Below the pieces are notes generated by a model. It did no database searches. It saw only the letters and a list, made by a program, of their open reading frames with translations, and had not been told where the DNA came from. This document shows, piece after piece, positions 50,669-52,202 of a stretch of 64,000 nucleotides of DNA. The DNA lies in NCBI RefSeq assembly GCF_022662495.1, contig NZ_JAKPBU010000001.1, positions 744,001 to 808,000 on the forward strand, written 5' to 3'. The DNA is from Lysobacter sp. M2-1 (GTDB lineage Bacteria > Pseudomonadota > Gammaproteobacteria > Xanthomonadales > Xanthomonadaceae). Position 1 is the stretch's first letter; each line of letters begins with the position of its first letter. The position numbers and the translations under genes are program-made.

Positions 50669-51778
50669 CTACCGCGCGTGGGCGAAGAGGTACTTCTGCA
50701 CATCCGGGTTGCCCTTGCGCCACATCACGGTGTCCAGGAAGTAGTGGTGCACGTTGATGAAGATCCAGAACAGGAAGAGGAAAAGCCCGGTTCCGAACAG
50801 CGCGTGGTCGTAGGGAACGTGCCGGTTGAGGTAGCGCGGCAGCCACCAGAAGCCGAGGTAACCCAGGCCCAGGCCGATTGCGTAAAAGCCCGCCATGCGC
50901 AACTCGGGCAACATCTCATGCGGATGGATGGCGTGAATGCGGTTGCGCTCGTAGCGCCAGACCACCGCCAGGTACTGCAGCGAGTGGAACAGCGGGACCC
51001 AAAGCACCAGCACCGGATCGCGGATCAGCAGCCATACGTAGCCGCTGGCCGCGTACGCCAGCAGCCCGTTCCAGGCGATGGCGTCGCCACGCCGCTGTTT
51101 CCGCAGCAGGCGCCAGGCCAAGTCCAGGCCGCAGCCGATCGCGACCACGCAGGCCAGCCAGGCCAGCGGCGCGGGAATGGCGATGAACGCGTACTCGACA
51201 CCCCAGTAGCTGCTCGCTACGCCGCCGAGCATGCGATTGAGCAGCAGCCATGAAAGCAACCAGACGGCGTAGGCGTTGCGCAGCAGTGCGCGCTTCTCGG
51301 CATCGGTAAACCAGGCCTGCTTGAACGCGGCATCCACCACCGCCATGCCGTAGCCCTGCTTGACGTAGTGCCATCCGACCAGGAAGAACATCAGATTGGT
51401 CATCAGACCGAGCGCGCGCGGCTGCCTTGCGGCGACGGCCCAGGCCATGACGGCAACCAGGGCCACCGGCGCCACCACGCCGCAAAGCCAGTAACGCAGG
51501 CGCAGGTCGGGCGGATAGCTGGTCAACTTCGCACCGAACTCGCGGTAGAACAGTTGGTACGAATGCATGAAGTGCGGATTGTTGATGACGTGGGCCAGCG
51601 CCAGCGTGGTGCCGGCGGACCAGGCCCTGGCCCAGGCGGCGTCGCCCATCGCCCAGCGAAGCGCGAGCAGCGCCAGCAGCGATCCGCCCCCCAACAGCAG
51701 GAAATCGGACACGGGCCCGTTGAGGTACCGGCGCGCAGCTGCCTTGTCGGGGGCAGCGGATCGCAGGATCGTGGACAT
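50669..51778 (-). CDS. Unknown multi-pass membrane protein with clustered histidines
   Basis: A 369-residue polytopic protein with 9-10 hydrophobic helices. Histidines occur inside or at the ends of helices in distinctive motifs: H63 and NNPHFMHSYQLFY (H69, H72), VGWHYVKQGYG (H137), PLFHSLQYLAVVWRYERNR (H265) and FINVHHYFLDTVMWR (H344, H345). This layout resembles a membrane metal centre, as in di-iron hydroxylases or carotenoid-cleaving enzymes, but no family was recognised. It lies 85 bp after glnK on the same strand, the place usually held by amtB; its sequence is not AmtB-like. The start at 51778 is preferred over a GTG at 51817. Confidence 0.8.
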   Translation of the reverse strand: MSTILRSAAPDKAAARRYLNGPVSDFLLLGGGSLLALLALRWAMGDAAWARAWSAGTTLALAHVINNPHFMHSYQLFYREFGAKLTSYPPDLRLRYWLCGVVAPVALVAVMAWAVAARQPRALGLMTNLMFFLVGWHYVKQGYGMAVVDAAFKQAWFTDAEKRALLRNAYAVWLLSWLLLNRMLGGVASSYWGVEYAFIAIPAPLAWLACVVAIGCGLDLAWRLLRKQRRGDAIAWNGLLAYAASGYVWLLIRDPVLVLWVPLFHSLQYLAVVWRYERNRIHAIHPHEMLPELRMAGFYAIGLGLGYLGFWWLPRYLNRHVPYDHALFGTGLFLFLFWIFINVHHYFLDTVMWRKGNPDVQKYLFAHAR

Positions 51779-51863
51779 CAATCGCCGAAGGGGAGAGCCC
51801 GGCTGGAGTGCGGCCACGCGATAGGTACCGACTCGTGTCCTTCAACCCGAAGCATCGGCGCGG

Positions 51864-52202
51864 TCACAGCGCATCCCCATCCAACTCCCCCGTGCGGATT
51901 CGCACCACCCGCTCCAGGTCCCAGACGAAGATCTTGCCGTCGCCGATCTTGCCGGTGCCGGCGGTTTTCATGATCGCCTCGACCACGGCGTCGACCTGGT
52001 CGTCGGTAATCGCGACCTCCAGCTTGATCTTGGGCAGGAAATCGACCACGTATTCCGCGCCGCGATAGAGCTCGGTATGGCCCTTCTGGCGGCCGAACCC
52101 CTTCACCTCGGTGGCGGTGATGCCGGCCACGCCGGCCTCGGCCAGCGCCTCGCGCACGTCATCGAGCTTGAACGGCTTGATGATGGCCATGACCATCTTC
52201 AT
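51864..52202 (-). CDS. glnK: Nitrogen regulatory PII protein
   Basis: Trimeric sensor of 2-oxoglutarate, ATP/ADP and, through uridylylation, glutamine. Exactly 112 residues. The T-loop [19 protein letters not shown] carries the modifiable Tyr51. The rest ([51 protein letters not shown]) is canonical. AGGAG lies 8 nt before the ATG. GlnK versus GlnB cannot be separated by sequence alone; position next to ubiK-comM matches the Pseudomonas glnK locus. No amtB adjoins; an unknown membrane protein follows instead. Confidence 0.94.

Follow-up and report, generated by a model that had tools for sequence, protein, structure and literature searches.

The focal gene and its family

The window, a stretch of 64,000 nucleotides from Lysobacter sp. 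M2-1 (contig NZ_JAKPBU010000001.1), lies within contig C1 of a 3.88 Mb genome that is 99.98% complete. The original prediction had singled out an open reading frame behind glnK as a histidine-rich membrane protein; the frame is real and covers 50669-51817 (GTG start) or 50669-51778 (ATG start) on the minus strand, and the four motifs quoted for it (NNPHFMHSYQ, GWHYVKQGYG, FHSLQYL and VHHYFLD) are all found in the protein. The start codon is uncertain, and the form analysed here is the ATG version, from which an in-frame GTG extends to 51817. The immediate locus is as follows.

49774..50631, plus strand: speE-like gene (ORF), convergent with the focal gene and forming the other edge of the presumed insertion site
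50669..51778, minus strand: focal gene, 369 aa, encoding a predicted ten-helix membrane protein (ORF, AlphaFold2 model)
51864..52202, minus strand: PII gene of glnK/glnB type, upstream of the focal gene on the same strand (PF00543, 9.8e-33)

We take the plus-strand frame to be speE. Depending on the start codon, 46 nt (GTG) or 85 nt (ATG) separate glnK from the focal gene, and a simple promoter/terminator scan, which listed two sites against 1.3 expected, reported no terminator in this interval. Beyond glnK lies ubiK, as had been stated (PF04380 match), and past it a neighbour that is presumably comM. Nothing obviously foreign was seen in the base composition at the focal gene.

The focal protein has no Pfam or NCBIfam match at E<=1. 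Scanning 22 family proteins against Pfam, the focal one included, gave hits to eight stray families, each in one member (best E 0.00063), and four of nine distant members had one weak match each (best E 0.0067). No supported Pfam or NCBIfam match was found among the members scanned. The best hits of a PDB sequence search (E 0.29 and 0.38) were judged to be chance, and no title or abstract opening found in the literature describes such a protein. The superfamily is unnamed and without a Pfam or NCBIfam match.

Relatives were found on 144 stretches in a scan of genome contigs, and the best 80 of the 144 (L004-L083), mostly from Mesorhizobium, are 41-52% identical to the focal protein. Closer to the host the gene is rare: with the host counted, it is present in one of 60 near genomes (the host itself), 5/398 genomes of its order, 8/369 of its class and 11/398 of its phylum. 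The order-level matches besides the host comprise one full-length homologue (G1144) and three that are partial and weak; G1144, from the host's own bacterial family, is the closest homologue found (54.5% identity). The plasmid collection held no match to the focal protein, and the viral contigs scan yielded one relative, on an IMG/VR contig (L141) that is Mesorhizobium-like and in which the gene adjoins an ORF resembling an integrase by eye; this contig may be host DNA from around a site of integration. Open reading frame calling is crude in such GC-rich DNA, and some true neighbours of the relatives were missed or swapped.

Relation to glnK and amtB

Like AmtB, the focal protein is polytopic, and in the window its gene follows one for a PII protein; it had been described as occupying the place of amtB. 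This did not hold: the focal protein has no PF00909 match (Pfam, E<=1), and the host's amtB match lies elsewhere on the contig (861270-862550), where a second PII gene (862825-863160), 73% identical to the window's glnK, precedes it by about 275 nt. The proposed PII control and co-occurrence with glnK fared no better, as no PII gene was found in any of the best 80 of 144 relatives' loci, which span at most 6 kb per side; when the loci were searched for PII, all matches were copies belonging to the host (L003, L103, and L001 at 73%).

The junction itself was compared across the host's family, in which 38 genomes had PII matches and 30 loci were fetched, 29 of them besides the host's. None of these 29 has the focal gene at glnK. 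In nine (L151, L154, L155, L158, L160, L169, L171, L173 and L174), no more than about 200 nt separate the end of the speE match from the glnK match, with nothing between, and in 15 speE is out of sight within the sequence reached. The junction, window positions 50632-51863, is variable, with 0.5-1.3 kb of other DNA in the remaining five (L165, L167, L175, L177 and L178). Since speE and glnK adjoin in nine of these relatives and enclose the gene in none of the 29, the focal gene was probably inserted at a variable junction. Thus glnK is a neighbour of the focal gene and not a conserved partner, and the location beside it is probably a chance of insertion. A PII-controlled membrane transporter or sensor that replaces amtB would fit glnK lying on the same strand 46-85 nt ahead and the lack of a reported terminator between the two; with amtB elsewhere beside its own PII gene, no PII gene found in the 80 relatives' loci and empty junctions in nine of 29 genomes of the host's family, we reject that link and consider such a function highly improbable.

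Conserved histidines and the predicted fold

Conservation was assessed in two alignments: A2, with 18 superfamily members of which ten are only 14-33% identical to the first sequence, and A3, with 29 sequences after exclusion of L039, L054 and L058 for stops in the extended reading. Near-identical rows were thinned from 81, giving 19 rows at 65% and 29 at 86%. Twelve columns are invariant in A2: H69, P104, H137, Q141, G144, H265, Q268, Y269, H344, H345, D349 and W353. In A3, the five histidines of this set and D349 are invariant in 29/29 sequences, and H72 is near-invariant. The codons concerned, all on the minus strand, are these.

51572..51574, minus strand: H69, motif NNPHFMHSYQ, predicted helix 2; invariant in 18/18 (A2) and 29/29 (A3)
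51368..51370, minus strand: H137, motif GWHYVKQGYG, predicted helix 4, with Q141 and G144; invariant in A2 and A3
50984..50986, minus strand: H265, motif FHSLQY, predicted helix 8, with Q268 and Y269; invariant in A2 and A3
50744..50749, minus strand: H344-H345, motif VHHYFLD, predicted helix 10; invariant in A2 and A3
50732..50734, minus strand: D349, HHYxxD, predicted helix 10; invariant in A2 and A3

The clustering of histidines is indeed not accidental, as they make up 5/12 invariant columns of A2 in a protein with 13 histidines among 369 residues (binomial p 3.5e-5 at the protein's own His content). Most of the histidines originally quoted are kept; His63 is not, being His in just 5/19 representatives, and His282, 285, 287, 320 and 325 are also not conserved.

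An AlphaFold2 model built on A3 is a confident ten-helix fold (mean pLDDT 88.7, pTM 0.86), at the upper end of the nine to ten helices first estimated. Its helices cover residues 22-44, 48-78, 90-116, 120-152, 159-184, 203-229, 236-251 (to 258), 261-284, 291-320 and 332-352; the hydropathy curve has nine peaks, with helices 7 and 8 merged. Lys and Arg cluster in alternate loops, and we therefore place both termini in the cytosol, in what is predicted to be an inner-membrane protein. In the model, the invariant histidines fall on helices 2, 4, 8 and 10, at distances from the cytosolic helix ends (by the model's limits) of 9 residues for H69, 15 for H137, 19 for H265 and 7-8 for H344/H345. An Arg follows ten residues after each of H69, H265 and H344 (R79, R275 and R354), and these may be membrane-edge marks; helix 4 has no such mark, so a common depth of the histidines is plausible only. 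Several invariant residues are spaced by three or four (H137-Q141-G144 on helix 4, H265-Q268/Y269 on helix 8 and H345-D349-W353 on helix 10), which in this model could be the look of a buried metal site. The cluster of five histidines and one aspartate, together with the glutamines Q141 and Q268, probably forms such a site across helices 2, 4, 8 and 10, with non-haem iron or another transition metal as the likely cofactor. Because the cluster is best read as an intramembrane metal site, the protein appears enzyme-like. Of the original functional proposal, then, the polytopic, enzyme-like protein with a conserved histidine cluster over four helices stands and the PII-controlled transporter falls.

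Fold searches matched no known metalloenzyme fold and no convincingly similar solved or viral structure: the best results from Foldseek against the PDB (E 0.077), from BFVD (E 0.11) and from VIA-align (Z 6.2, a proteorhodopsin) were read as uninformative. For VIA-align, Z values below 8 (in helical bundles, below about 13) may reflect a common arrangement. Fatty acid desaturases and hydroxylases carry eight-His HxxxH/HxxHH boxes; neither PF00487 nor PF04116 matched any of 31 family proteins, and no such boxes occur among the invariant columns of A2.

The nearest resemblance in layout is to the Brp/Blh carotenoid dioxygenases, in which histidines and iron play a role (in Blh). Eight Brp/Blh (PF15461) sequences share four invariant histidines (H58, H114, H220 and H286), and the motifs come in the same order, PHG, HF, HS and (P)H against PHF, WHY, HS.QY and HHY in the focal family, with the difference that HHxxxD and WHYxxQ belong to focal family members. 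Three of the four Brp/Blh histidines come after hydropathy peaks, H58 after peak 2, H114 after peak 4 and H286 after the last. Such similarity speaks for a reading in which the focal protein is a general membrane oxygenase or hydroxylase with a Brp/Blh-like histidine layout, acting on a small lipid-like substrate (isoprenoid, quinone or acyl chain) and linked to pilins as only one use of its product. Against this, H220 falls between peaks and its helix is not resolved; PF15461 matched none of the 31 family proteins (22 members and nine distant ones, E<=1) and nothing in the host genome; and one Brp/Blh relative is predicted to have seven helices, in an excerpt of its source (PMC4110020). Profile comparison by hhalign gave E 0.48, 0.38 and 0.23 on stretches of 18-28 columns with only eight Brp/Blh rows, and a comparison using one single sequence gave E 0.26; with such values on such short stretches, we claim no Brp/Blh kinship. 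The viral contigs scan supplied no further Brp/Blh sequences, and two records from a plasmid search were left out of the comparison. No carotenoid gene was recognised among the scanned neighbours of the focal family, in a scan not dedicated to such genes. On balance we regard the general oxygenase as rather unlikely; further support for it comes from the alphaproteobacterial loci described below.

Relatives beside type IV pilin genes

Loci were scanned with a pattern that we take to represent the type IV pilin motif, which scored in 5/5 known pilin loci and in 0/42 control loci (145 kb in all, most of them near 3.3 kb in length). Among the best 80 of 144 relatives, the motif was found in 8/12 loci not assigned to Alphaproteobacteria (one of these, L035, has no class) and in 0/68 alphaproteobacterial loci. 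At its contig edge, a ninth locus (L014) retains the C-terminus of a pilin, and L063, the tenth, has PilB and PilC with no pilin detected, so that 10/12 non-alphaproteobacterial loci are pilus-linked. The remaining two are L083, which has no pilus link, and L005, whose 0.2 kb of upstream sequence is too short to tell.

The relative directly follows the pilin gene in L004 (PilS-PilR-pilin-gene), L006 from Variovorax (pilin-gene), L035 (pilin-gene-PilB-PilC) and L047 from Alloalcanivorax (pilin-gene, with PilB-PilC divergent), and a Wzy_C ligase intervenes in L014, L019, L021, L041 and L060 (pilin-ligase-gene-PilB-PilC). For the closest homologue, G1144, the order is pilin-terminator-gene-PilB-PilC, then an ORF resembling PilD by eye. 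In the tree, G1144 is sister to the window gene (95/84) and both group with L004, L005 and L006 (100/99); the pilus label can be mapped onto it with 4 changes, where shuffled labels need 9.5 on average. As to whether neighbours would prove random in other genomes, they are non-random in the beta-, gammaproteobacterial and acidobacterial loci, and the alphaproteobacterial ones show neither pilin nor PII. With its nearest relatives beside type IV pilin genes and not nitrogen genes, the focal gene looks to be a pilus helper of an undescribed type, one that came to lie next to glnK in this genome.

This layout recalls the pilin-accessory cassettes (TfpO, TfpW, TfpX/Y/Z), of which that of Pseudomonas aeruginosa carries a Rho-independent terminator after the pilin and ahead of the accessory gene, as the consulted portion of PMC11841053 describes; L004, L006, L035, L047 and L216 likewise have the gene directly behind the pilin with a hairpin between. 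A hairpin with a T-run lies behind the pilin in L004, L006 and L047, and one can be seen by eye in L216 and L114 and after the first of the two pilins in L217; in L035 the hairpin lacks a clear T-run, and in L019, L021, L041 and L060 the T-run is short, broken or absent. A gene directly behind the pilin with a terminator between is thus found in L004, L006, L047 and L216. The window copy differs from the cassette systems in lying outside a pilin locus, and no pilin motif was found in the window. The host's own pilin also has a hairpin, so hairpins support the layout and not a specific function.

Standing behind a pilin terminator, in the cassette position of TfpX/Y/Z, several relatives might be pilin chaperones or assembly factors without catalysis, counterparts of TfpY whose histidines hold haem or a metal with a structural role. 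TfpY, according to the same portion of PMC11841053, has three helices and a periplasmic domain; the focal model has ten helices with invariant His and Asp, and the periplasmic C-terminal domain that characterises TfpX/TfpY/TfpZ is absent from it. Invariance is centred on polar residues inside predicted membrane helices, and some members have no pilin nearby, which together make a non-catalytic chaperone quite unlikely. Profile searches gave no Wzy_C or other glycosyltransferase match in the focal family, in contrast to cassette proteins.

The absence of a pilin motif from 68/68 alphaproteobacterial loci means that a pilus role cannot be the sole role, and it favours the general oxygenase, as do the many solitary Mesorhizobium copies whose surroundings include genes of dprA, plsY and pyrimidine type (clusters seen in 23-28 loci, with families read in L011 and L012). 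The gap between pilin and pilB may also be a landing place for genes without a pilus role, which would tell against the pilus reading. Among 13 neighbourhoods of distant members (L111-L120 and L217-L219, with L118 and L119 from one genome and several of them short), the pilin motif was found in two and missing from 11, some of these short, so the pilus link recurs and is not universal. In the first (G274, L114), tandem members of 551 and 528 aa are accompanied by PilR/PilS matches and by a pilin gene that is convergent and some 3 kb distant, an arrangement unlike the cassette order; in the second (G878, L217, from the host's order), a 347-aa member with all four motifs lies 0.65 kb behind a pilin.

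Several features of these distant loci were also noted. In the tandem pair (L114:6488-9745), a large insert separates the third histidine motif from the fourth. The run at L217:1656-10751 holds two pilins, three membrane-type proteins of the Pfam Sulfatase family and the distant family member; one of the Sulfatase proteins has NCBIfam arylsulfatase and phosphoethanolamine-transferase matches far under their cut-offs. At L219:1-921, the C-terminus of the member runs by eye into TPR-like repeats, and a TPR protein follows the member in L115, where the member also lies behind genes that by eye resemble those of haem A/O synthesis and cytochrome oxidase assembly (L115:3993-8139).

Pilin tails were compared for eight pilins linked to a member without a Wzy_C ligase (L004, L006, L035, L047, L114, L216 and two in L217). 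Seven of the eight end in Pro, most with Ala/Thr/Pro-type tails, against 5/30 pilins of the host's family, the host included (one-sided Fisher 0.0004, in a post hoc comparison whose groups differ in taxa). The four ligase-linked pilins (L019, L021, L041 and L060) all end in Arg, giving a Pro tail in 7/12 overall. The host's pilin has a CPAP tail and a hairpin behind its gene, but the pilin-tail link in the host genome is weak, because the same tail occurs in G802, where no homologue turned up. Behind the host's pilin gene stands a different protein, of 644 aa and with no match in Pfam or NCBIfam (L179:7644-10132, contig C1 at about 1895.6-1898.1 kb, outside the window), with two glycosyltransferase genes beyond it; this, and the window copy's place outside a pilin locus, tell against the pilus reading.

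Our preferred reading, to which we give a probability of about one half, is that the focal protein is a new kind of pilin-accessory inner-membrane metalloprotein, most likely an enzyme, whose window copy was displaced between speE and glnK. The ten-helix protein would hold a metal at its five histidines and aspartate, with Gln and Tyr contributing, and would use it in catalysis. The gene would serve as a pilin-accessory gene in beta- and gammaproteobacteria and in an acidobacterial MAG, placed with the major pilin and often ahead of pilB-pilC, and its product probably modifies the membrane-held pilin or its lipid-linked group, or aids pilin assembly. The window copy may act in trans on the host's type IV pilin. 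A more specific version, in which an oxygenase-type intramembrane metal enzyme alters type IV pilin or its lipid-linked decoration, is paired with Ala/Pro/Thr-tailed pilins and has a Brp/Blh-like blueprint that is convergent or too distant to align, seems to us unlikely; if true, it would add a further pilin-modification chemistry beside glycosylation and phosphoforms.

Pilins act as receptors for phages and power twitching, and accessory genes decide their decoration and assembly, as set out in the consulted portion of PMC11841053. A superfamily with an enzyme-like histidine core and no Pfam or NCBIfam match, found repeatedly in the pilin cassettes of several lineages, would amount to a new accessory-protein class, and the many alphaproteobacterial members with no pilin motif nearby (68 loci read) suggest a further use for this chemistry. 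Both the pilus-accessory and the second-use claims can be tested directly through the conserved residues.
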